Below, one piece after another: positions 426-30,492 of a stretch of DNA of 64,000 nt. The translations under genes and the position numbers were made by a program. The stretch lies in the NCBI RefSeq assembly GCF_029278565.1, contig NZ_CP119559.1, positions 2,356,001-2,420,000 of the forward strand, given 5' to 3'. Below the pieces are notes generated by a model. The model did not search any database. It saw only the letters and a program-made list of their open reading frames with translations, and was not told the origin of the DNA. Numbering within the stretch: position 1 is the stretch's first letter; every line of letters begins with the position of its first letter. This DNA comes from Haloarcula halophila (lineage in GTDB: Archaea > Halobacteriota > Halobacteria > Halobacteriales > Haloarculaceae).

Positions 426-2849
426 ATGGACGACCAGGTTCGGGACGCGACCGAGGCCCTGATCGAACGCAAGCCCGCCCTCCGGGACGACATCGAAACG
501 CTGCTCGAACGCGACGGGGACGGCGTCTGGGCGTTCGATGAGGTCGCCGTCGATTCGGGTGCGTTCGGCGAAATCGTGGGTTCCGGCTTAGTCGAGGAGA
601 CCGACGATGGCTACCGGCTCAGCGATCGTGCGGCGATCCGGGCGGCTATCGAGCCGCCGTCCGGCGACGACAGCGACGACGCCCCTGCGTCGGTCAGCGT
701 TCAGTCGTCCTTAGAGTCCGTTTCGTTCCCGAACCGTCGACGAACGCTCGCGCTCGGCGCGGCGCTGTTGGCGCTTGCGTTGGTTCGTATCCTCCTGATG
801 GCCCCGGCCGTCTTCCGTCCGACGGGGATCGTCCTGGCCGGTAACGATCCCTACATGTACCATCACATCGTCGAACAGCTGACGACGAGCGGCCCCGCGG
901 CGTTCAGCCCGAGCGCGCTCGGACAGTTGGACATTGATTTCCTCCAGTTCGAGGTTCGAACCCACGATACGCTGCTGATCGTCGTCTTGTGGTGGGTGGC
1001 AGCGTTGCTGGGCGGCGAGAGCGCGGTGGGGACCGTCGTCGCGTGGTACCCGGTCCTGGCCGCCCTCGGCTGCGCGATCTGTGTGTATCTGCTGACGGTG
1101 CGGCTGACCGACGATATCCGCTGTGGGCTTGCAGCGGTCCTCCTGTTGGCGATAACGCCCGCTCACGCGTACCGCACTGCGCTTGGATTCGGCGATCACC
1201 ACGCGTTCGACTACCTCGTGCTTGGGGTCACTGCCCTCGCGGTGGCCGTTGTCGCGACCGAACGGGTCAGCCGAACGGACGATCGACTCGGTGTCTCGCC
1301 TACTGGTTGGCTCGCCGTCGGCGTCGGTGGGGCCGGGATCGCGGCACAGACTGCCGCTTGGCGTGGTGGTCCGCTGCTCGTCTTGCCCATTGCACTCTAC
1401 GTCGTCGCCCGGACCTACGTCGATGTCCGGGACGACGTGGACCCATTCGCGACCAACGCGCTGCTACTCGCGTTGACTGGCGTCGGTGCGGTGCTGTCGT
1501 TGGTCCCGCACCTGGCGTTCGACTGGTTCCAACCGGCCCGGGCGTTCGCGCCGCTGTTGCTCTTTGTCGGGGCGGTCGGTGTCGTCGGCTTCGCAGCGCT
1601 CGTGGGCCGCTTTGACGTCCCGGCCTGGACGACGCTTGCCGGCGAGGCTGCGGGTGTTCTCGCTGCCCTCGTGGTCCTCCCCGCTGTGTTTCCACCGATC
1701 GCCGATGCGGCGACCGAGGCCATCAGCTACTTCCAGACCTACGGCGGGAGCGGTATCGCCGAGACTCAGTCGCTGTTCAGCGGGAACCTCGGTGCGACAA
1801 TCGCACCCATCTTCCTGTTCGGGTTCGTGCTCTTCCTGGCGCTGCCGTACATGGCGTGGGCGGCCTGGGTACAGGGCGGCCAGCGCGGTCGGCCCGACTG
1901 GCTGGCCGTCTCGGCGTACGCCTGGTGGTTCTTCCTGTTGGCGATCGTCCAGAACCGCTTTAGCGGGGAACTGTCGCTCTTCACTGCTGTCTTCGCCGGG
2001 ATCGGCTTCCTCCACGTCGCGGTTTGGGTCGATATGGCCCGGCCGCTGAATCTCGGTACAGGGGAGACGGACCCACGCTCGCGGGCTGACGGCGGTACTA
2101 CGTCGTTGCCCGGGCTTGACGCAGTTGATGGCCGAACCGTTGCCCAGTTCGCCGTCCTCTTCTTGCTCATCGGTTCCCTCGGCGGGGTCCAGACAGTCGT
2201 GAAGACACAGCAGATCTCGGTCACCGACGCCGCCTACGAGACAGGGATAGCTGTCGACGCGTACGCCGACGAACACGACATGGGCTACCCCGAGAACTAC
2301 GTCATCAGCCGCTGGGGGAACAACCGAGCGGACAACTACCTCGTCAACGGGGAGACCGAGTCCTACGAATACGCCCAGAACAACTACGGCGGGTTCATCG
2401 GATCCTCGGACGCCAGCGGCTGGTACGACCAGTTCGCGGGGGATGACGTCGGCTTCGTGGTCGTCAGGGCGGAGACGCCAGCCCCGGAGGAGTCCGTCCA
2501 CAGCCAGTTGCTGGCCGACTACGGCAGCGCGACCGAATCGAGCCCCGCGCTGGAACACTACCGCGCGATATACGAACACGAGAGCGGGCAACTCGTGGCT
2601 TTCGCTGTCGTTCCGGGGGCGACGGTGACCGGGACCGCCGAGGCCGGGACGACGATCACCGCCGAGACGACGGTGATGCTTCCGCCGACAGGCGAGGAAG
2701 TGACCTACACACAACAGGCCGATGTCGGCGAGGACGGTCGATATACGTTCACGACGCCGTATCCGGGGACCTACAGCGTCGGCGGGAACGAAGTCACCGT
2801 TCCGGAGTCGGCGGTCCTCGATGGCGGGAACGTCACCGAAAACGGCTGA
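426..2849 (+). CDS. aglB: AglB/STT3-like oligosaccharyltransferase, divergent catalytic motif
   Basis: 807 residues. Residues 1-100 are cytosolic and look like a winged-helix domain. About a dozen membrane segments follow, then an exterior C-terminal domain from about residue 590. STT3-type acidic motifs are visible in the external loops: GNDPY near 139-143 and GFGDHH near 255-260. The protein therefore belongs to the archaeal oligosaccharyltransferase family that moves lipid-linked glycan onto Asn of surface proteins. At the start of the exterior domain, where AglB has WWDYG, this protein reads SRWGNNRADNY (about 626-636). So it may be a divergent paralogue rather than the housekeeping enzyme. 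Neighbouring glycosyltransferases and a nucleotidyltransferase support a glycosylation role. Family membership is firm; activity is uncertain. Confidence 0.85.
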   Translation: MDDQVRDATEALIERKPALRDDIETLLERDGDGVWAFDEVAVDSGAFGEIVGSGLVEETDDGYRLSDRAAIRAAIEPPSGDDSDDAPASVSVQSSLESVSFPNRRRTLALGAALLALALVRILLMAPAVFRPTGIVLAGNDPYMYHHIVEQLTTSGPAAFSPSALGQLDIDFLQFEVRTHDTLLIVVLWWVAALLGGESAVGTVVAWYPVLAALGCAICVYLLTVRLTDDIRCGLAAVLLLAITPAHAYRTALGFGDHHAFDYLVLGVTALAVAVVATERVSRTDDRLGVSPTGWLAVGVGGAGIAAQTAAWRGGPLLVLPIALYVVARTYVDVRDDVDPFATNALLLALTGVGAVLSLVPHLAFDWFQPARAFAPLLLFVGAVGVVGFAALVGRFDVPAWTTLAGEAAGVLAALVVLPAVFPPIADAATEAISYFQTYGGSGIAETQSLFSGNLGATIAPIFLFGFVLFLALPYMAWAAWVQGGQRGRPDWLAVSAYAWWFFLLAIVQNRFSGELSLFTAVFAGIGFLHVAVWVDMARPLNLGTGETDPRSRADGGTTSLPGLDAVDGRTVAQFAVLFLLIGSLGGVQTVVKTQQISVTDAAYETGIAVDAYADEHDMGYPENYVISRWGNNRADNYLVNGETESYEYAQNNYGGFIGSSDASGWYDQFAGDDVGFVVVRAETPAPEESVHSQLLADYGSATESSPALEHYRAIYEHESGQLVAFAVVPGATVTGTAEAGTTITAETTVMLPPTGEEVTYTQQADVGEDGRYTFTTPYPGTYSVGGNEVTVPESAVLDGGNVTENG

Positions 2850-14345: not shown

Positions 14346-15037
14346 GGTCGCGTTAAGTTGGAGAATGAAGCGGACGAGTTCTGAGTGCTTATGTCCGAAT
14401 TCGACCGCCTCAGTGGATGTATCGAGTGGATCGACTTGTCGTTTGTGGAGCGATGCCGGACTCCTGAATGGGCGATTCAAGTAGGCATCCGGTGTCACTT
14501 GGCAGGTATATCACTTCGATATTCAAGTCAATTTCTCGATGGGTTGGGAGTCCAACGTAGTCCTGTCTCGATCCACGAGTGGGTTCACAAGGCCGACCTA
14601 CAGCCGATCTCGACGGTGACCGCGGATCACCTCGCGGTTGACGAAAAGATGATCCGCCTTCACGGGCAGAAATTTTGGTTGTACGGTGCTGTCGATCCCC
14701 CAAAGGAACGAAATCCTGCACGTTAGCCTCTTTTAGACGGCGACGAAACAGACCATGCGGTAGTTTCTGACCTGGCTTCACCGCCGATACCAGCTTATTG
14801 ACGTACTGTTTCTTGTCGACGATGCTGATTATCTCGGTCCAGTTCAGGCTGAAGATGGCTACCGATTGCAGACACTCGCACATGGAAATCGGAATGCTAT
14901 CGAACGTGTATTTTGAAAAGTAGAACGGCGAACATCCTCATTTGCAAATAGTTTCAGCCATGTCGAACTAGAGACAGCTCAAGAGTGGCTCGAAGCCTTC
15001 GCCGTCTACCACAACTCACGCCAAAATTAACGCGATG
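14346..15037 (+). mobile_element. Decayed IS6-family element
   Basis: A 692-bp element with the same terminal inverted repeats as the intact copy at 19876-20566: GGTCGCGTTAAGTT at the left and the complement of CATCGCGTTAATT at the right. The flanking 8-mers (14338-14345 and 15038-15045) differ, so no target duplication remains; this fits loss of one flank or recombination with another copy. It is in the opposite orientation to the intact copy. Confidence 0.82.
14391..15030 (+). pseudogene. IS6-family transposase, frameshifted
   Basis: The first 103 residues match the intact transposase closely (SEFDRLSGCIEWIDL through KFWLYGAVDP), after which the frame breaks at a run of C (gatcccccaaagg). 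The remainder can be followed in other frames (VDDADYLGPV and SHVELETAQEWLEAF equivalents), and a TGA follows at the FE position near 14917. At least one frameshift and one stop make it inactive. Confidence 0.85.
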
Positions 15038-15136: not shown

Positions 15137-16528
15137 GTCTTTAGCTAAGACTCACACCTCGGTTGTGTAGCGGTGGCGAGCGTCTCTTGTAAGATCGGTC
15201 GTTGTTGGTGGGTCTTCTGAGCATCCTCGATCAGCCGCTACAGCAACGGCGGTGGCGAGTAGCCAGGGTACCTTCTGAGTTCGTGGAGGATGAGCTGGGC
15301 GTGCGACCGGAAGGTCGCCGCCCAGCGTTCCGGCGGAAACACGATCTCATCATCGGCCTGCTCGGTGACCAGATCCAACAACTCAAGACTCACCAGCAGT
15401 GACAGCAACGCCGCGTACAGTAGAATCTTCACGACATCTGGGTTGCTCGTATCGAACTCGTCCAGTTCATACTGCGTCTTCAACTCACGGAACAGCGTTT
15501 CTACTTCCCATCGACACCGGTACAGCGTCGCTAGATCTGACGGCAGGAACTCCTCTCTCAACAGATTCATTATGTAGAGATGGTAGTCGTCGGCGTCCTC
15601 GTTGCGGACGCCGACGACACGGAATCGCTTCGTGTCCAGTGACCGTGTTCCCTTGTACTGGCCCCGCTTGAACTTTGCTTCGACCTCTACGTGGATTTAC
15701 TTCCGCGAGAGGTCATCGACCACATCGTGGATCTGCTTGCCCTCCAAGGGAATGGCGCGGCCGCGCCATTCCCATAATTCCTCCATTATCAGTGGATTCG
15801 CGTTCTCTTTCAGCGACTCACGAAGTAGCCGTCGTTCTCATCAATCAACGCGAAGCGGCGGTACTTGATGTACGCTCGATCAAACAGAACTAGCCGTCCT
15901 CGCAACCACGATCCCGTTTTGAATAGCGTGCTGTCGTGCGTTTTCTCGTCCGTTACATCGATCCGTTCAATTGTCTGGTCGGTGGCGTTGTGGAGCAGGT
16001 GGAGCTTCGCTCCAGCCTGCTTCTCGTAACGGGGTTGGAACTCATCAGAGAGGAACTCGTGCAACCGCAACACTGTTCCATCAGCGATCATCATGTCCCT
16101 GAATCGGCCGATATCAGCGTCAACAGCGTCTGGAACAGCGACCTCGTCGAGTCCACGCTCGACGAGGTCGCGGAGATACTCTGCCAGCGTCGGTGTCAAC
16201 CGGTGATAGAAACCGACAGAAGAGATTGGTTCGTCAGCTGTGGCGTTGTAGCAGCGTCTGAACCCAGCGAGTGTTCGGCTCTCGCCTATGGCGAAGCCGA
16301 ACACGAGCGCCCACACGAGGACAGGAATCTGAAGCTTGCCTTCTCGCTCGACCACCCCGAGTTCCTCGGCGTGCTCTTTGAGGAACTCGGAGGGAAGCAG
16401 TGTAGTGAGCCGACGCATGATTCTCGATGAGGTGGCTCTGTTGGACACAGCTATCGCCTCTTCATTCCTCTCGAAAAGAAGCCTCGATAAGCCGCTGCTG
16501 TCACGCGGTTTCTCTCTTAGCTAAAGAC
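15137..16528 (-). mobile_element. ISH8-type IS4-family element, decayed
   Basis: The ends carry the inverted repeat GTCTTTAGCTAAGA (15137 onward and complement ending 16528). The span of 1392 bp is close to the known length of ISH8 (about 1.4 kb). It encloses a broken IS4 transposase on the minus strand. No clear target duplication was seen next to the ends. It lies between the two IS6 copies, upstream (on the map) of the dideoxyhexose operon. Confidence 0.8.
15238..16418 (-). pseudogene. IS4-family (ISH8-like) transposase, frameshifted
   Basis: The N-terminal half reads MRRLTTLLPSEFLKEHAEEL with catalytic MIADGTVLRL (first Asp) and RLVLFDRAYIKYRRF (second Asp). The C-terminal half, in another frame, has YRCRWEVETLFRELKTQYEL (YREK-type motif with catalytic Glu). 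The two halves are separated by about 240 bp (15571-15810) where the frame is lost, so the enzyme is not made. Intact relatives are about 400 residues. Confidence 0.85.
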
Positions 16529-16660: not shown

Positions 16661-17929
16661 TCACGCGTACTCGGAGACGAACTCTTCAATACTCTCAAGG
16701 ATATACTCTATCTGGGCGTCACCCATCTTGTGGTGATTACCGACGAACAGCCCGTTCTCGTGAATCAAATCTGCATCTTCAAGCTTCCCGACCTGCCGGT
16801 AGTCTATCTGCTTGAGTGCTGGTTGACGGGCCAGGTTCCCGGCGAGTATCGGTCGGGTCTCGATAAGTTTCGACTCAAGATGTTCTCGTAACTCGTCCTG
16901 GGTAAATGGCGCTTCGTCCCGGATAAGTATTGGATAAGCGAACCATGAACACCGGGTATCCGGCCGCTCGTGGAGTATATCGAACAGGTCGTCGAACTGA
17001 TCCATTTCAGCGTTCAGTTTGCGTGCGTTTGCCCGACGAATATCAATGAACTTCTCTAAGCGATTCAGCTGGTGAATACCGAAGGCTCCCTGAATCTCAG
17101 TTGGCCGGAGGTTGTAGCCGTGGGAGACGAACAGGTACCGCTCGTCAATTTCGGGTGACTCTCGGACATACTCATCCTTACTCTCCATCTCTCGAACCCA
17201 CCCGTGAGCCCGTCCGGCCCTGTTTCGGTCCAAATACTCTTCGGAGTCTGTAGTAATCATTCCTCCTTCGATCGTCGAGATGTGATGCGAGAAGAAGAAA
17301 CTGAACGTGCCGATGTCGCCGAATGAGCCCACCTTCTGACCGTCGTATTCCGCACCGTGAGCCTCACACGAGTCCTCAATGACTGCGATATCGTGCTCTT
17401 TACAAATGTCCATAATCGGACCCATCTCGCAGGGATTACCGAGCAAATGGACGAGTACAACGGCCGCAGTATCGTCCGTAACCGCCTCTTTAAACGCTTC
17501 CACATCGATAGTGTATGTTGATGGGTCCACGTCAACTAACACTGGTTTGGCGTTCACGTCCACGATGGGAAAGACACTAGTCGACCACGATACGGCCGGT
17601 ACAATCACTTCATCACCGGGCTTGATGATGTCGCCCTCGAGGGCTTTTAATGCGAGCAGGTTCGCCGACGAGCCGGAGTTTACCATTGTCGAGTGATTAG
17701 TGCCGATGTAGTCTGCCCACTGGCCCTCAAACGTCTCGACCTTCTCACCCATAGTGACCCACGTCGACAGAAGTGAGTCCAGTGATTCGATTACTTCTTC
17801 AGTGCCATAAGTTGGGCTGCTCAACCGGACAGGCGTTTCGCCAGGTTGGAATTCATCGTCGCTACGGTTCTCGAAGACAGTTCGAATCTCCTCTTCGATT
17901 GAATTGGGTACGTCGTTACAGTCAGTCAT
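16661..17929 (-). CDS. Sugar 3-dehydratase of the DegT/aminotransferase fold (ColD-like, Lys replaced by His)
   Basis: 422 residues, DegT/DnrJ/EryC1/StrS family. Residues around 75-90 (NSGSSANLLALKAL) and 180-200 (VIEDSCEAHGAEYDG) bind PLP/PMP. The active-site segment is GTFSFFFSHHISTIEGG: aligned with family members (FSFHxxKxITTGEGG), the PLP-lysine is His215. The same Lys-to-His change defines ColD and E1 (RfbH), which remove the C3 hydroxyl of a 4-keto-6-deoxyhexose instead of transaminating. After the HH motif only one cysteine is present, so the E1-type [2Fe-2S] site is absent and the glutamate-dependent ColD type is favoured. It overlaps the SDR gene by 8 nt in an operon with gmd. Predicted step: GDP-4-keto-6-deoxymannose to GDP-4-keto-3,6-dideoxymannose. 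Confidence 0.85.
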   Translation of the reverse strand: MTDCNDVPNSIEEEIRTVFENRSDDEFQPGETPVRLSSPTYGTEEVIESLDSLLSTWVTMGEKVETFEGQWADYIGTNHSTMVNSGSSANLLALKALEGDIIKPGDEVIVPAVSWSTSVFPIVDVNAKPVLVDVDPSTYTIDVEAFKEAVTDDTAAVVLVHLLGNPCEMGPIMDICKEHDIAVIEDSCEAHGAEYDGQKVGSFGDIGTFSFFFSHHISTIEGGMITTDSEEYLDRNRAGRAHGWVREMESKDEYVRESPEIDERYLFVSHGYNLRPTEIQGAFGIHQLNRLEKFIDIRRANARKLNAEMDQFDDLFDILHERPDTRCSWFAYPILIRDEAPFTQDELREHLESKLIETRPILAGNLARQPALKQIDYRQVGKLEDADLIHENGLFVGNHHKMGDAQIEYILESIEEFVSEYA

Positions 17930-18836
17930 GGTTATGCTCAAATCGTTCCAGGGTCGCTTCAATACCGCGTTTGAAATCGTATTCCGGCTTCCATCCGAAT
18001 TGCCGGAGCTTCGATACATCAGCCACCATCCGCTCGATTTCAATGTTTGACGCACGCCCGGTAGAGTCTGAGTTGACCGTAATATCGCTATCACTTTGAT
18101 CGATAATCTCGTCAACGAAGTCACGAACGCTGGTTTCGCGACCGCTACCGACATTGAACACGTCGTACTGGTTCCAAGATTTGTCGAGGACTGTCAGTAC
18201 CGCTGATGTCAGGTCTTCGACATACGTAAAATCTCGTGTCGGCTCGAGATTCCCGAGCGAAACGGTATCTGTCTCAGCTTCAATCTGTTCAATTACTGTC
18301 GGGACCAGATTGTCTGTATCTTGTCCGGGGCCGTATAGAGTGAACCCGCGTAGCGTCACGACCGACAGGTCGTAGCTGTTGGCGTATGTCTCTGCGAGGT
18401 TCTCACCTGCGAGTTTGCTCGATGCGTACGGGTGGAGACACTCTGTCGCGTGAGACTCATCTATTGGGAGATAGTCGGGCGTTCCGTATACTGCTCCGCT
18501 GCTGAGGTAGACAAACCGGTCGACGCCGTCTTCGCGCGCTTGCTCGAGGACATGCTGCGTTCCGAGGGCGTTTGTCCGAAATGTTCCGACTGGATTATCA
18601 ACCGAGCCCTGCACCGAGACAACGCCGGCGAGGTGGACGACGGTGTCGTAGCTACCGAACGACGGGAGCGACTCGAGATCGGTCACATCGGCGACGTGGA
18701 CATCAACATCCTCTGGAATCTCCCCTTGGACAGAGTGTGCCAGAACGTCGACCTCGTAGTCGGCATCTGCAAGTGCTGGGACGAGATTGGATCCGACGAA
18801 CCCGGTTCCGCCCGTGACCAGAATCGAATTACGCAT
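17922..18836 (-). CDS. Nucleotide-sugar epimerase/reductase, extended SDR family
   Basis: 304 residues from ATG 18836 (MRNSILVTGGTGFVGSNL), chosen because it gives the 8-nt overlap (ATGCGTAA) with gmd and starts at the Rossmann strand. TGGTGFVG is the NAD(P)-binding GxxGxxG loop; LSSGAVYG and YASSK supply the Ser/Tyr/Lys catalytic triad. In the operon it would reduce, and perhaps epimerise, the 4-keto-3,6-dideoxy sugar made by its neighbours, the role of ColC in colitose synthesis. The YASSKLAGE motif is more GalE/RmlD-like than Fcl/ColC-like, so the final sugar may not be colitose. Confidence 0.85.
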   Translation of the reverse strand: MRNSILVTGGTGFVGSNLVPALADADYEVDVLAHSVQGEIPEDVDVHVADVTDLESLPSFGSYDTVVHLAGVVSVQGSVDNPVGTFRTNALGTQHVLEQAREDGVDRFVYLSSGAVYGTPDYLPIDESHATECLHPYASSKLAGENLAETYANSYDLSVVTLRGFTLYGPGQDTDNLVPTVIEQIEAETDTVSLGNLEPTRDFTYVEDLTSAVLTVLDKSWNQYDVFNVGSGRETSVRDFVDEIIDQSDSDITVNSDSTGRASNIEIERMVADVSKLRQFGWKPEYDFKRGIEATLERFEHNHD

Positions 18837-19794
18837 CTTTCCGGATTTCTTCGAGGTCAACTTGCACCATCTCCCTAATCAGTTCCTCAAAACTGATTTC
18901 CGGTTCCCAGTCCAATTTCTTCTTTGTTTCAGAGATATCTGCCCTAAGAGCGTCGACCTCCGCCGGGCGGAAGAACTTCTCGTTGACTTCGACATACTCA
19001 TTCCAGTCTAACCCCACCTCGTCGAAGGCAATCTGGGCGCACTCCCGCACCGTGTGGTGCTCCCCGGTCCCGATAATGTAGTCGCCGGGCTCATCCTGCT
19101 GGAGCATGAGGTGCATGGCTTTGATGTAGTCTTTGGCATGGCCCCAATCACGCTTCGCGTCGAGATTGCCGAGCTCGAGCGTGTTCTGTTGCCCTTCCGC
19201 TATTCTGGCCGCACCACGGGTAATCTTCCGAGTGACGAAGTTCTTTCCACGGCGGGGCGATTCGTGGTTAAACAGGATTCCGTTCGTCGTGTACATATCG
19301 TAGGCTTCCCTGTAATTAACTGTGGACCAGTACGCGTATAGTTTGGAGACGCCGTAAGGGCTCCGTGGCTGGAACGGCGTATCCAGGGATTGTGTATCGT
19401 CTGGCGCGTTCCCGAATATTTCACTGGTGCTCGCCTGGTAAAATTTCGCGTCCATCTTGTACTTCCGGACGGCTTCCAGCACCCGGGTGGCACCCAGGCC
19501 CGTGATGTTACCCGTGTTCACCGGCTGGTTGAAGCTCTCAGGGACGAACGACAGTGCTGCGAGGTTGTAGACTTCGTCCGGCTCGGCTTCTTTGACTGCC
19601 CGGTCGAGCGAGGATTGGTCGGCCAGGTCACCATTAAGTATATTGACATCGTCTATGAAATCGTCAATTCGAATGTGATTATTAGTGCTATTCCATCGCT
19701 GTAGCCCATATACTTGATAGTCTTGTTGTAATAAGTATTCGGCTAGGTAGCTCCCATCTTGCCCGGTAACTCCAGTAATCAATGCACTAGGCAT
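18829..19794 (-). CDS. gmd: GDP-mannose 4,6-dehydratase
   Basis: 321 residues. ITGVTGQDGSYLAEYLL at residues 5-21 is the diagnostic Gmd NADP loop. YQASTSEIFG, SPYGVSKLYAYW, LFNHESPRRGKNFVTRKI and GNLDAKRDWGHAKDY are near-invariant Gmd segments giving catalytic Thr/Ser, Glu, Tyr and Lys. It converts GDP-mannose to GDP-4-keto-6-deoxymannose in the cytoplasm. First gene of a three-gene operon with 8-nt overlaps to the SDR and that gene to the 3-dehydratase. The length is slightly short of bacterial Gmd (about 350-370), mainly at the C-terminus, but all motifs are present. The intact IS6 element ends 73 bp upstream of its start. Confidence 0.95.
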   Translation of the reverse strand: MPSALITGVTGQDGSYLAEYLLQQDYQVYGLQRWNSTNNHIRIDDFIDDVNILNGDLADQSSLDRAVKEAEPDEVYNLAALSFVPESFNQPVNTGNITGLGATRVLEAVRKYKMDAKFYQASTSEIFGNAPDDTQSLDTPFQPRSPYGVSKLYAYWSTVNYREAYDMYTTNGILFNHESPRRGKNFVTRKITRGAARIAEGQQNTLELGNLDAKRDWGHAKDYIKAMHLMLQQDEPGDYIIGTGEHHTVRECAQIAFDEVGLDWNEYVEVNEKFFRPAEVDALRADISETKKKLDWEPEISFEELIREMVQVDLEEIRKDA

Positions 19795-19875: not shown

Positions 19876-20566
19876 CATCGCGTTAAGTTTGGCGTGAGTT
19901 GTGATGGACGGCGAAGGCTTCGAGCCACTCTTGAGCTGTCTCTAGCTCGACATGGCTGAAACTATTTGCAAATGAGGATGTTCGCCGTTCTATTTCCCAA
20001 AAAACACGTTTGATAGCATTCCGATTTCCATGTGCGAGAGTCTGCAATCGGTAGCCATCTTCAGCCAGAACTGGACCAAGATAATCAGCATCGTCGACGA
20101 GAAACAGCACGTCGTCAAGCTGATACTGGTGATGAAGCTCGGCCAGAAACCACCGCGTCGTCTGTTTCGTTGCTGTCGGAAAGAGGCTGAGGTGGAGAAT
20201 TTCGTTCGTTTTGGGATCGACAGCGCCGTACAGCCAAAATTTCTGGCCATGGAGGCGGATCATCTTTTCGTCAACCGCGAGGTGATCCGCGGTCACCGTC
20301 GAGATCGGCTGTAGGTCGGCCTTGTGAACCCACTCGTGGATCGAGACATGACTGCGCTGGGCTCCCAACTCATCGAGAAACTGACTGGCATCCCGAAGTG
20401 ATATACCTGCCAGATGACACCGGATGCCCACTTGAATCGCCCACTCGGGAGTCCGCTGGCGCTCCACAAATGACAAGTCGATCCACTCGATACACCCACT
20501 GAGGCGGTCGAATTCGGACATAGACACTCAGAACTCGTCCGCCTCATTCTCTAACTTAACGCGACC
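19876..20566 (-). mobile_element. Intact IS6-family insertion sequence with 8-bp target duplication
   Basis: 691 bp bounded by imperfect inverted repeats CATCGCGTTAAGTT (left) and the complement of GGTCGCGTTAAGTT (right). The 8-mer GACCGCAT is present directly outside both ends (19868-19875 and 20567-20574), a perfect target duplication of the size IS6 elements make. This shows a fairly recent insertion. It carries one full transposase gene. Confidence 0.93.
19883..20521 (-). CDS. IS6-family transposase
   Basis: 212 residues from ATG 20521 (MSEFDRLSGCIEWIDL); a GTG two codons upstream is also possible. DDE residues are visible in LAVDEKMIRL (first D), VLFLVDDADYL (second D) and KRVFWEIERR (E), with the ERQRTPEWAIQVG and HEWVHKAD helix-turn-helix-like N-terminal parts. 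Length and motifs match complete haloarchaeal IS6 transposases. The stop codon TAA lies inside the left terminal repeat. It should be active by sequence and could mobilise the decayed copy at 14346. Confidence 0.93.
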   Translation of the reverse strand: MSEFDRLSGCIEWIDLSFVERQRTPEWAIQVGIRCHLAGISLRDASQFLDELGAQRSHVSIHEWVHKADLQPISTVTADHLAVDEKMIRLHGQKFWLYGAVDPKTNEILHLSLFPTATKQTTRWFLAELHHQYQLDDVLFLVDDADYLGPVLAEDGYRLQTLAHGNRNAIKRVFWEIERRTSSFANSFSHVELETAQEWLEAFAVHHNSRQT

Positions 20567-20697
20567 GACCGCATAGGCAAAATATTTAAATTGGATGGCT
20601 TTAGTGTTCCCAACGGCCTTCAGGTTCAGATAGACAGAATACAAAAATAGGTTCATGCGTGGTTATACTTCGTAGTGTAGAAATTCCACCATTAAGT

Positions 20698-21729
20698 ATG
20701 AAAGTATGGCATAAAGTTCCCAGCGATAATCATATTGTTCATCCATTCAAGGATAGTGAGCAAGTTATAGCATGCGATTTACCGTTACCGTGGTCGGAAT
20801 TTTGGTCGATTCACTGCGTTCGGAAGGGCTACAATATAGTGCATTTGCAATATCTTCAGACAAATTTATTCTTCAACGGCCATCCTATTCTGTCAATTTT
20901 CCGGACAATACTTTTCATTTTGAATGTAATCATATTGAAACTCACACGTACAAGGATTGTGTGGACTGCACACCACACTACAGGCCATGAAAGTGAAATA
21001 GAACTCCTCGACCGGATTGGTCGTCAAACTCTTTTTATTCTCGCAGACCACATTTTCGTATTATCGCCCCCTATCAGGCAGCAAATAGAATCGGAGTATT
21101 CAGTACGTGCTCCAATTTCCGTCGCCGAACTCGGCAACTATAGAATATTACATGAAGAGCGGCAGCGGGGAGGGGACCCATCATCCAAATTCCCAAGTGC
21201 TGGTCCTGTTGTCTCAATGATTGGGTTAATTCGTCGATACAAGCGTGTACCGTTGGGTATCCAAGCTTTTGACCATTCTAACGTGGCAACTAACATGCTC
21301 ATCGCAGGAAAACCAATGGATACCTCAATCCATACAGAGGTGCAGGACGCTATTACAACGACTTCTAAACCTGTGACAACTCATCCAAAATTCATAAGTG
21401 ATGCTGGGCTGGTAGAATACGTCGACAAAAGTGATGTAGTACTCATTTTGAATGATCAATCGACTGTCCCTGCGACAGCATACTTAGCTGCAGCATGCCG
21501 CACGCCCGTCGTTTCTGCTCCGGGTGGGATAAAAGAGTATTTGATTACCGAATACGACATCGGTATTGTATCCGACTCAACTTCAGAATCTGATATAGGA
21601 GCTGCAATTGACGAAGCACTCTCCGATTCAGATGAGTTTTGCTGGGAGAAATTTGATCAGGACCACCAATGGGATGATTACAAATCGACTCACTTCGAAG
21701 TATACACCTCTCTGATTAGAAACACATGA
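20698..21729 (+). CDS. GT-B glycosyltransferase, divergent GT4-like
   Basis: 343 residues from ATG 20698 (MKVWHKVPSDNHIVHPF); the frame is open 13 codons further up but no better start is seen. The N-terminal half has IVWTAHHTTGHESE and LADHIFVLSPPIRQQI. The C-terminal half has MIGLIRRYKRVPLGIQAF, MLIAGKP and AAACRTPVVSAPGGIKEYL, the core and glycine-rich tail of GT-B transferases; the usual E-x7-E is weak. A hydrophobic stretch near 75-95 (ILSIFRTILFILNVIILK) suggests membrane contact, as in GumK/WcaI-like enzymes. AT-rich. Function in surface glycan assembly is inferred. Confidence 0.7.
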   Translation: MKVWHKVPSDNHIVHPFKDSEQVIACDLPLPWSEFWSIHCVRKGYNIVHLQYLQTNLFFNGHPILSIFRTILFILNVIILKLTRTRIVWTAHHTTGHESEIELLDRIGRQTLFILADHIFVLSPPIRQQIESEYSVRAPISVAELGNYRILHEERQRGGDPSSKFPSAGPVVSMIGLIRRYKRVPLGIQAFDHSNVATNMLIAGKPMDTSIHTEVQDAITTTSKPVTTHPKFISDAGLVEYVDKSDVVLILNDQSTVPATAYLAAACRTPVVSAPGGIKEYLITEYDIGIVSDSTSESDIGAAIDEALSDSDEFCWEKFDQDHQWDDYKSTHFEVYTSLIRNT

Positions 21730-28063: not shown

Positions 28064-29161
28064 ATGCGAGTTCTAATGTTGAATTACGAGTTTCCCCCTC
28101 TAGGAGGAGGGGCAGCAAACGCGAACCAATATCTTCTACAAAAATTTGCCAATCGACATAATCTCTATGTGGATCTTATTACGTCTTCGGCTTCAAACGA
28201 AAAAATAATTCAATTTGCTGAGAATATCACTATTCATAAGCTCGATGTCGAAAAGCAAGACATTCACCATTGGACTCAGATAGAAATCCTCCGTTACAGC
28301 TGGCAGGCATTCCAGCGTGCTCGGAAGTTGATCAAAAAAAATGAATACGATGTGGTGCATGCGTGGTTCGGCGTCCCAAGTGGTGTACTTGCGAGAGTGA
28401 TAGATATCCCATTCTTAGTGGCCCTCCGTGGTAGTGACGTACCAGGATACAATGAGCGGTTCACAGCACAATACACTTTGCTTCGACCAATAATACGTCA
28501 TGTCTGGCAAGAGGCGGAGGCAGTCGTCGCAAATTCAGAGGGGCTACGAGAATTAGCTCGCGAAACAGCCACGCCTGGTATCGAAGTGATACCAAACGGT
28601 GTCGCAATCTCAGAGTTTACCCCAGAATACCCGCGTTCAGGACGCCTATCAGTGCTTTGTGTTGCTCGATTAGTAGAGCGTAAAGGGATTAAGTATCTAA
28701 TAGATGCTATCAGTTGTGTATCTGAGACAGAGTTGACTGTAGTAGGTGAAGGTGAGCGAGAGAGTGAACTAAAAAACTGTGTCGAACGACTGGGTATTAC
28801 TGATAGAGTGAATTTTACTGGTTACGTCCCACATGATGAAATCCATGAGTATTACGAACGGGCAGATGTCTTCGTTCTACCATCGTTCAACGAAGGAATG
28901 AGTAATACAGTACTCGAAGCAATGGCCGCTGGCCTCCCCATTGTAACAACAAATACCGGCGGAACGGCAGAATTACTGGACGGAAATGGAGTAATAGTAG
29001 AAAAACGAAGTTCTGATGCAATCAAAGATGCTCTACAAGAATATATGAGGAATGAAGAGAAAAGAGAATCAGATGGACGAAGATCAAGGAAACTCGCAGA
29101 AAACATGAGCTGGGAAACAGTCGCAGATCAGTATTATTCACTCTACAAACAGATATGCTAA
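28064..29161 (+). CDS. GT4-family glycosyltransferase
   Basis: 365 residues from ATG 28064 (MRVLMLNYEFPPLGGGAANA), preferred over an in-frame TTG at 27992 because the family starts here. Motifs: PPLGGGAAN loop, ALRGSDVPGY, NGVAISEF, VARLVERKGIKYLIDA and FNEGMSNTVLEAMAAGLPIV. A TATA-like TTTAAATATAAAA lies at 27962-27974. Its stop overlaps the start of the next gene by 7 nt, so the two are co-translated. AT-rich island gene; sugar unknown. Confidence 0.92.
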   Translation: MRVLMLNYEFPPLGGGAANANQYLLQKFANRHNLYVDLITSSASNEKIIQFAENITIHKLDVEKQDIHHWTQIEILRYSWQAFQRARKLIKKNEYDVVHAWFGVPSGVLARVIDIPFLVALRGSDVPGYNERFTAQYTLLRPIIRHVWQEAEAVVANSEGLRELARETATPGIEVIPNGVAISEFTPEYPRSGRLSVLCVARLVERKGIKYLIDAISCVSETELTVVGEGERESELKNCVERLGITDRVNFTGYVPHDEIHEYYERADVFVLPSFNEGMSNTVLEAMAAGLPIVTTNTGGTAELLDGNGVIVEKRSSDAIKDALQEYMRNEEKRESDGRRSRKLAENMSWETVADQYYSLYKQIC

Positions 29162-30492
29162 ATTGGAGAAAACCTTTACTTCTGTTGGGGCTTCACTTAA
29201 CCGGCAACAACATTCCGAGTAATCTATATAAAATTAGACAAATAGAGAACTCCTCAGAGGCAATTAGAGAACTTCAGCAACAAAAACTCAAATCGCTTTT
29301 AGAACATGCCTCAGAGACCGTACCATACTATAATGCCCTACTGAAAGAAAACGATGTAGTTTCTGATGGAGGCATAAAATTAGATAATTTTGAAAAGTTA
29401 CCACTATTAACGAAAGAGGACATCCGTTCAGCGGATGGGGACTTGCATTCGAGCGCTCCCGGACCGAATCCATATTCTAATACCTCCGGTGGTACCACTG
29501 GGGAGCCCGTGGAATTCCTTCAAGATGACCGGTACTGGCAATGGAACGTCGCAAACAAAATATACTATCACTCGCTAGCTGGGAAAGGACTCGGTGAACC
29601 GGAAATAAAACTTTGGGGGAGTGAACGTGATATACAGAAGGGCAGTCGGTCGCTAAAGACCCGCATCCGGAATTTCTTATACAATCGACAGGCACTGAAT
29701 AGTTTTAAAATGAGTGAAGAAGATATGGAGCAGTATATCAGAGAAATAAATCAACACCAGCCTAAATCTATCTGGGCATATGTCGAGTCAATGCATCAAC
29801 TTTCCCAATATGCAAAAAAGAACAATTTGAAGGTATATTCACCAGCAGGCATCGTTACGACGGCAGGTACATTACACGAACCTGTTCGAGAAACAATTGA
29901 GGACGTGTTTGACACTAAGGTCCACAATCAATATGGCTCCCGGGAAGTTGGTGATATCGCCTGTGAGTGTCCCCATCAAGAGGGACTACATATTTTCACT
30001 CATTCCAACTATGTCGAAATAGTTGATGAAGATGGAAACCCGGTTCCGAGCGGCGAAGAAGGGTACGTGGCAGTGACTAATTTAACGAACTATACAATGC
30101 CACTTATAAGATACAAGATTGGTGATATGGCAGTCGGCTCTGACGAATCCTGTAGTTGTGGCCGCGGTTTCCCACTATTAAAGAAAGTGACGGGGCGAGA
30201 ATCCGATCATTTCGTAACTCCTACCGGAGAACTGATTCACGGAGAATATTTCACTCATTTATTTTATAACAAAGATTGGGTGCGAAAATTCCAAGTGCAT
30301 CAAATATCACGGGAAAGCTTGGTAATTAAGATTGTAAAAAGAGAACCAGAGGACGGAGCTGACTTGGAAGCGATTAAATCTGAGATACGCAATGTCATGG
30401 GTGAAGAAGTAGAGATAGAAGTCGAATTCAAGGAAGAGATCTCCCCTTCTTCTTCCGGAAAGTTTCGGTACATTGTTTCTGAAGTGCTCTAA
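29155..30492 (+). CDS. CapK/PaaK-like adenylate-forming enzyme
   Basis: 445 residues. The adenylate-binding loop NTSGGTTGEPVEFLQ is at about 108-122. Other phenylacetate-CoA-ligase-family motifs are YGSREVGDIACECPHQ (about 262-277), MPLIRYKIGDMAV and CSCGRGFPLLKKVTGR. Cysteines in the last two segments resemble the zinc site of the PaaK group. In polysaccharide clusters such CapK proteins are common, presumably activating a carboxylate for attachment to sugar or lipid, but no CoA or acyl acceptor is established. It overlaps the GT4 gene by 7 nt and is AT-rich. Family call firm, substrate unknown. Confidence 0.82.
   Translation: MLNWRKPLLLLGLHLTGNNIPSNLYKIRQIENSSEAIRELQQQKLKSLLEHASETVPYYNALLKENDVVSDGGIKLDNFEKLPLLTKEDIRSADGDLHSSAPGPNPYSNTSGGTTGEPVEFLQDDRYWQWNVANKIYYHSLAGKGLGEPEIKLWGSERDIQKGSRSLKTRIRNFLYNRQALNSFKMSEEDMEQYIREINQHQPKSIWAYVESMHQLSQYAKKNNLKVYSPAGIVTTAGTLHEPVRETIEDVFDTKVHNQYGSREVGDIACECPHQEGLHIFTHSNYVEIVDEDGNPVPSGEEGYVAVTNLTNYTMPLIRYKIGDMAVGSDESCSCGRGFPLLKKVTGRESDHFVTPTGELIHGEYFTHLFYNKDWVRKFQVHQISRESLVIKIVKREPEDGADLEAIKSEIRNVMGEEVEIEVEFKEEISPSSSGKFRYIVSEVL

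Follow-up and report, generated by a model that had tools for sequence, protein, structure and literature searches.

A predicted GDP-3,6-dideoxy-D-hexose operon in Haloarcula halophila, with a ColD-type dehydratase and a putative reductase devoid of the C5-epimerase residues

A stretch of 64,000 nucleotides from Haloarcula halophila (assembly GCF_029278565.1, contig NZ_CP119559.1, positions 2,356,001 to 2,420,000; hereafter the window) contains an operon of three genes on the minus strand (Table 1). The order is gmd, a gene for a short-chain dehydrogenase/reductase (SDR), and a gene for a DegT-fold enzyme, and each frame translates cleanly from ATG. The first-pass annotation had described three genes with overlaps of 8 nucleotides; both were confirmed, the overlaps lying at 18829–18836 (gmd/SDR) and 17922–17929 (SDR/DegT). 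The operon is real, conserved, and rare, and would encode a variant of the ColD-type pathway. Read from its sequence, it would make a GDP-3,6-dideoxy-D-hexose from GDP-mannose, most simply GDP-tyvelose, without a 2-epimerase; it would not make colitose. A probability of about two in three is given to this reading.

The first enzyme, Gmd, passes the curated model TIGR01472 (418.8 bits for a cut-off of 415). Its closest solved structures are GDP-mannose 4,6-dehydratases at 371 bits. A GDP-heptose dehydratase scores 129 bits, and a GDP-heptose substrate was rejected on this comparison. The operon copy is the sole gmd-like match in the genome, the next best having 30% identity (E = 8.6e-21). A mannose-1-phosphate guanylyltransferase-like gene, which scores 225 bits and is below the 373-bit cut-off of a bifunctional family, is a candidate that could supply GDP-mannose.

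The DegT-fold enzyme carries the motif TFSFFFSHHISTIEGG, where SHH starts at residue 214 and the first histidine is His215. This residue aligns with the histidine changed in the H188N and H188K chains of ColD, and with His220 of E1. It is invariant in the 25 sequences of alignment A2, made of the window protein and 24 relatives that were chosen as His-type, and no lysine is invariant or nearly invariant across this His-type selection. The replacement of the pyridoxal 5'-phosphate (PLP) lysine by a histidine, as first annotated, is thereby confirmed, and a catalytic lysine displaced elsewhere is unlikely. The best sequence matches in the PDB are ColD (290 bits), E1 (236 bits), and perosamine synthase (171 bits). 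The last of these also belongs to the DegT superfamily and uses the same Gmd product, so that an operon with a 4-aminotransferase making GDP-perosamine was considered; this is very improbable, as no lysine occupies the Schiff-base position or is conserved in A2, and as the SDR reductase would have no role.

Cysteines 193, 251, 253, and 261 of E1, which we take to be the ligands of its iron-sulphur (Fe-S) cluster, correspond to Cys188, Met248, and two gaps in the DegT enzyme. With three of the four replaced or gapped, as in ColD, the four-cysteine site is absent, in agreement with the annotation. PMC8987622 describes a histidine acting as acid/base, pyridoxamine 5'-phosphate (PMP), and glutamate in such dehydratases, and a cluster held by four cysteines in E1; an Fe-S cluster is attributed there to E1 and SpnQ, not to ColD.

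The relatives used for phylogeny came from a contig scan with alignment A1, which gave 106 DegT relatives; the 80 best were retained, and a scan with a single protein gave none. A table of gene neighbours was compiled with 88 DegT rows, L015 and L017 having been removed because their contigs, of matching length, are those of L023 and L025. A careful tree was built from 44 rows, namely 42 of these 88 plus ColD and E1, with no aminotransferase among them. It splits E1 and five rows of the AHN class from ColD and the rows of the SHH/GHH class, with support of 100/99.

Several observations weigh against the ColD assignment. The top NCBIfam model is RfbH/E1, at 357 bits for a cut-off of 423. With an AlphaFold model of mean predicted local distance difference test (pLDDT) score 94.1, the fold search ranks ColD first (7.4e-41) by a narrow margin over a near-tied E1 (8.8e-41), and the query TM-score is higher for E1 (0.93) than for ColD (0.85). 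The enzyme also aligns with E1 in length and in the N-terminal region, from residue 25. ColD sits on a long branch in the careful tree, and its placement is weakly supported (76) in a quick tree of 90 rows. These features would suit an E1-type dehydratase that uses a CDP-sugar and depends on an Fe-S cluster and on a reductase like E3. That alternative is extremely unlikely given that only one cluster cysteine is kept, that E1 falls among the AHN and SHV classes in the trees, and that the operon holds a GDP-mannose dehydratase. The comparison with ColD, E1, and perosamine synthase called for by the first-pass annotation thus favours ColD, by bits and narrowly by fold, and an aminotransferase is not the best match. 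The DegT enzyme is very probably a ColD-like C3-dehydratase, as judged from its sequence.

Colitose is an L-sugar, and making it requires epimerization at C5. The residues responsible in bifunctional synthases of the GDP-fucose type are a Cys/His pair. To place this pair, 91 neighbouring SDRs were aligned (the L015 row being the same gene as L023), and the synthase of the sister haloarchaeon L016, which matches GDP-L-fucose synthase best (228 bits), served to set the two columns. In the Cys and His columns of the GDP-fucose/colitose synthases, the window SDR has Ala115 and Asn176. All five operon SDRs, from the window and four haloarchaeal copies, have Ala or Ser in the former and Asn in the latter. 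Among the neighbours, 33 are nearest to the L016 synthase and 58 to the window SDR; the Cys and His are both present in 24 of the former and in none of the latter. In a quick tree, the five operon SDRs share one clade (99, starred) outside a starred synthase clade of 28 rows.

Another source of C5 inversion was looked for in two families, the synthase type and the RmlC type, a scope that itself tempers the case for a D-sugar. No synthase homologue was found at E ≤ 1e-40 in the four operon genomes searched (G000, G012, G056, and G177), that of the window included. Six more SDR genes of the window genome were read (L107/L115, L109/L118, L110/L119, L111/L117, L112/L116, and L113; a ninth match at E = 5.6e-4 was left out), and all of them lack the Cys/His pair. 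RmlC-type proteins (PF00908), the family to which the C5-epimerase of the Campylobacter jejuni dideoxyheptose pathway presumably belongs, were found at E ≤ 0.001 in none of six genomes searched, the window's among them, and 11 of 14 control genomes were positive, including Haloferax volcanii. Since the dyad is replaced and no other epimerase of these families was found, a D-series product is the simplest reading, and is probable.

The environment of related DegT genes bears on the same question. Among rows of the SHH/GHH class, 21 of 40 have gmd within 4.5 kb, versus 5 of 48 in other classes (Fisher 1.9e-5), and 21 of 40 have a Cys/His synthase within that distance, versus 1 of 48 (Fisher 2.1e-8); these p-values are overstated by the shared ancestry of the rows, and the counts are lower bounds as short contigs may hide neighbours. 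Both genes are found together beside 15 of the 40 SHH/GHH rows and 1 of the 48 others. The association of Gmd with a ColD-type enzyme is that of the colitose route, and the frequency of Cys/His synthases among the relatives, L016 included, adds to the appeal of GDP-L-colitose as the product. The SDR would then be an unrecognised colitose synthase, or C5 would be inverted by an unknown enzyme. This is nevertheless unlikely, given the residues found in all five operon SDRs, their clade, and the lack of another candidate in the two families searched. Colitose, one outcome proposed in the first-pass annotation, is therefore disfavoured; the C4/C5 variant that it left as a fallback fits as a D-series sugar.

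The SHH/GHH neighbourhoods also provide evidence against a GDP-mannose-derived product. There is no gmd within 4.5 kb of 19 of the 40 rows, including that of the haloarchaeon L025, and L041 and L045 have a dehydratase and a non-synthase SDR with no gmd within 4.5 kb. The class is thus not confined to GDP-mannose pathways on this evidence.

Whether the SDR is a C4-reductase or a 4-epimerase was examined separately, and the evidence is mixed. Its Tyr137 and Lys141 are invariant in alignment A4. None of the five operon SDRs has an Asp at the end of strand β2 (Ala, Ser, or Thr is found, followed by His or Arg). The GDP-4-keto-6-deoxymannose reductase 2pk3 likewise has none, whereas the aligned NAD-binding 4-epimerases do. 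A quick tree puts the SDR on the side of 2pk3 (Shimodaira–Hasegawa-like approximate likelihood ratio test 91, not starred), away from the GalE and UDP-GlcNAc 4-epimerase references. This placement favours a reductase but is unstarred, and three results tell against one: the top sequence match is a UDP-GlcNAc 4-epimerase (127 bits, and 112 for 2pk3), the top NCBIfam match is LegB (206 bits for a cut-off of 475), and the top fold matches are GalE-type epimerases, with 2pk3 at rank 10. The SDR could then be a GDP-sugar 4-epimerase, such enzymes being known from archaea (Quispe et al., as cited in PMC13098431), and the 4-keto-3,6-dideoxy sugar would be reduced by another enzyme of the genome or by none. 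This is improbable in view of the missing acidic residue at the β2 end, the side of the tree occupied, and the fact that it accompanies gmd and DegT in all four genomes that have it, which fits a step acting after the 4-keto sugar.

The preferred route, leading to a GDP-linked D-sugar, would run as follows. Gmd would convert GDP-D-mannose to GDP-4-keto-6-deoxy-D-mannose, a step well supported by its family. The PMP of the DegT enzyme, the ColD-like activity of which is predicted from sequence, tree, and fold, would form a Schiff base with the 4-keto sugar, and His215 would act as acid/base for the departure of the C3 hydroxyl. Hydrolysis would yield GDP-4-keto-3,6-dideoxymannose and ammonia, and glutamate would regenerate PMP. 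Neither an Fe-S cluster nor a reductase partner would be required. In the last and weakest step, the SDR would reduce C4 with NAD(P)H and leave C5 untouched. The product would be GDP-3,6-dideoxy-D-mannose (GDP-tyvelose) if the new C4 hydroxyl were equatorial, and the D-lyxo isomer if it were axial; the chance that the product is tyvelose itself is put at slightly less than even. The sugar would presumably enter a surface glycan through the neighbouring glycosyltransferases. The GDP-mannose-fed, Fe-S-free C3-dehydratase of ColD type proposed in the first-pass annotation, which implies a GDP-linked 3,6-dideoxyhexose, is supported by these sequence comparisons.

The distribution of the operon was examined in 391 genomes of the class, where the gmd and SDR searches scored the best 4–5 candidates per genome. 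The DegT protein (E ≤ 1e-60) was found in ten: that of the window, five at 54–64% identity, and four at 36–37% that carry a different His class of DegT. At this threshold, it is missing from the 20 genomes listed for the genus of the window. Matches to the gmd type (E ≤ 1e-100) occur in four of the 391 genomes, as do those to the SDR type (E ≤ 1e-60); the four are the same, and all have the DegT gene. The gmd–SDR–DegT order is shared by the window, L013, L014, L023 (Halorubrum tebenquichense), and L024 (Haladaptatus pallidirubidus), and the 8-nucleotide overlaps at both joints recur in L013 and L024.

L016 has a DegT of the same type together with a Cys/His synthase and another gmd (533 bits). 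Its synthase reaches 287 bits with the NCBIfam fucose-synthase model, below the cut-off of 500, although the Cys and His are present. L016 is nested among rows with the SDR type, with support of 98/89 for a group of five rows that does not include the window; its own sister placement is weak (85/59). Under parsimony, the reductase type switches twice over the 26 rows of the 44-row tree that were labelled by hand. Further afield, ColD-type enzymes are scattered in archaea, with Asgard, Thaumarchaeota, DPANN, and haloarchaeal records. The Thaumarchaeota L028, L037, and L038 carry a ColD-type gene; a Cys/His synthase lies within 4.5 kb in L028 and L038, not in L037, and gmd is found within 4.5 kb in none of the three.

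Other His-type classes were encountered among the DegT relatives. A second haloarchaeal class (L018–L021, from genomes G145, G126, G335, and G183) has a motif like SFYGSHVIT and the Glu of EGG replaced; it groups with E1 and not with ColD in the 90-row quick tree (88, unstarred), and no gmd was found in the stretches examined. The AHN class comprises 22 rows (L048, L050–L057, L059–L061, and others), many from Patescibacteria/Parcubacteria, 3 of which have gmd within 4.5 kb; its substrate is probably another nucleotide sugar. The closely related AHH class (L081–L086, L088, L089, and L093) is mostly from Verrucomicrobia, and none of its nine rows has gmd or a Cys/His synthase within 4.5 kb. L098, which has a lysine at the position of His215, was set aside as probably an ordinary aminotransferase.

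The proposed pathway can be compared to known systems. Like the GDP-L-colitose pathway of E. coli and Yersinia O-antigens (Gmd, ColD, and ColC), it combines Gmd with a His-type, Fe-S-free C3-dehydratase acting on GDP-4-keto-6-deoxymannose, but the last enzyme is not ColC-like, since it belongs to another SDR clade and lacks the Cys/His pair, and the host is an archaeon. The probable end sugar, 3,6-dideoxy-D-mannose, is that of the CDP-tyvelose pathway, which employs E1/RfbH and E3, CDP-paratose synthase, and CDP-tyvelose 2-epimerase; here, GDP replaces CDP and the Fe-S enzyme is absent. No 2-epimerase is needed because C2 has the mannose configuration from the start. The GDP-D-rhamnose pathway (Gmd and RMD) likewise reduces C4 of a GDP-4-keto sugar without inverting C5; with a C3-dehydratase added in the present operon, the product would lack the C3 hydroxyl, unlike GDP-D-rhamnose. 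Tyvelose is given as 3,6-dideoxy-D-mannose in PMC13098431. The closest worked-out parallel is the GDP-3,6-dideoxy-heptose pathway of C. jejuni HS:5/HS:11 (PMC10440746), which is also GDP-linked and uses a PLP/glutamate C3-dehydratase and a separate NADPH-dependent C4-reductase. It acts on a heptose instead of a hexose, and its separate C5-epimerase, leading to the L series, has no PF00908 counterpart found here.

The operon lies in a stretch of lower GC content, among glycosyltransferases and two flippase-like genes. On either side of it lies an IS6-type copy of about 690 nucleotides; the two copies are inverted relative to each other, with complementary stretches of 92% and 89%, an arrangement resembling a composite transposon. 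The frame of the right copy has no Pfam match at 0.001. The glycosyltransferase beyond this copy is 45% identical to the product of a gene 99 nucleotides downstream of the L014 operon, and its type (E ≤ 1e-50) occurs in 2 of the 391 genomes, both with the operon; it is a candidate transferase for the operon's sugar. The surrounding glycan island also encodes a PaaK-like adenylating enzyme (29155–30492), which scores 147 bits with the NCBIfam DVU_1553 family (cut-off 300), has no Pfam match at 1e-5, and perhaps decorates the glycan with an acyl group or an amino acid.

Table 1. Features of the operon and its surroundings, in window coordinates
Feature	Position	Strand	Basis
gmd, first operon gene, GDP-mannose 4,6-dehydratase, 321 aa	18829..19794	-	TIGR01472 and structure matches
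SDR, predicted C4-reductase without C5-epimerase dyad, 304 aa	17922..18836	-	Alignment, SDR clade
Ala115 codon (C5-epimerase Cys column)	18492..18494	-	SDR alignment
Asn176 codon (C5-epimerase His column)	18309..18311	-	SDR alignment
DegT-fold enzyme, last operon gene, predicted ColD-type GDP-4-keto-6-deoxymannose 3-dehydratase, 422 aa	16661..17929	-	Sequence, fold, tree
His215 codon, predicted catalytic His in PLP Lys position	17285..17287	-	Invariant in 25 A2 sequences
AglB/STT3-like oligosaccharyltransferase, about 14 kb from the operon	426..2849	+	TIGR04154, 146.6 bits, below cut-off of 450
Left IS6-type copy, no full-length frame (longest plus-strand frame 113 aa)	14346..15037	+	Inverted repeat I1/I2
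IS4-family transposase, between left IS6-type copy and operon	15810..16448		148 bits, cut-off 115
Right IS6-type copy, 214-aa transposase frame 19883–20527	19876..20566	-	NF033587, 145.6 bits, cut-off 125
Glycosyltransferase, 356 aa, beyond right IS6-type copy, opposite strand to operon	20659..21729	+	PF00534

3,6-Dideoxyhexoses are O-antigen sugars of enteric bacteria, and one is predicted here in a haloarchaeon, within a glycosylation region. The first-pass annotation knew of none characterised in a haloarchaeal glycan, and this was not contradicted by a literature search over titles and the beginnings of abstracts (most papers remaining unopened), which returned nothing on archaeal glycans containing a 3,6-dideoxyhexose or on a GDP-tyvelose route. 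A pathway survey of 303 archaeal genomes that included colitose (PMC7725333) reports the absence of the L-colitose pathway from TACK archaea. The ColD-type genes of the Thaumarchaeota L028, L037, and L038 contrast with this report, although no gmd lies within 4.5 kb of them. Tentatively, and with odds somewhat below even, the operon would represent an archaeal pathway, GDP-linked, Fe-S-free, and 2-epimerase-free, for making tyvelose or the epimer at C4, in which a ColD-type enzyme is paired with a plain C4-reductase, and haloarchaea would swap reductases to make D- or L-series sugars. It is proposed that two residues of the SDR may tell which stereochemical series each lineage makes.

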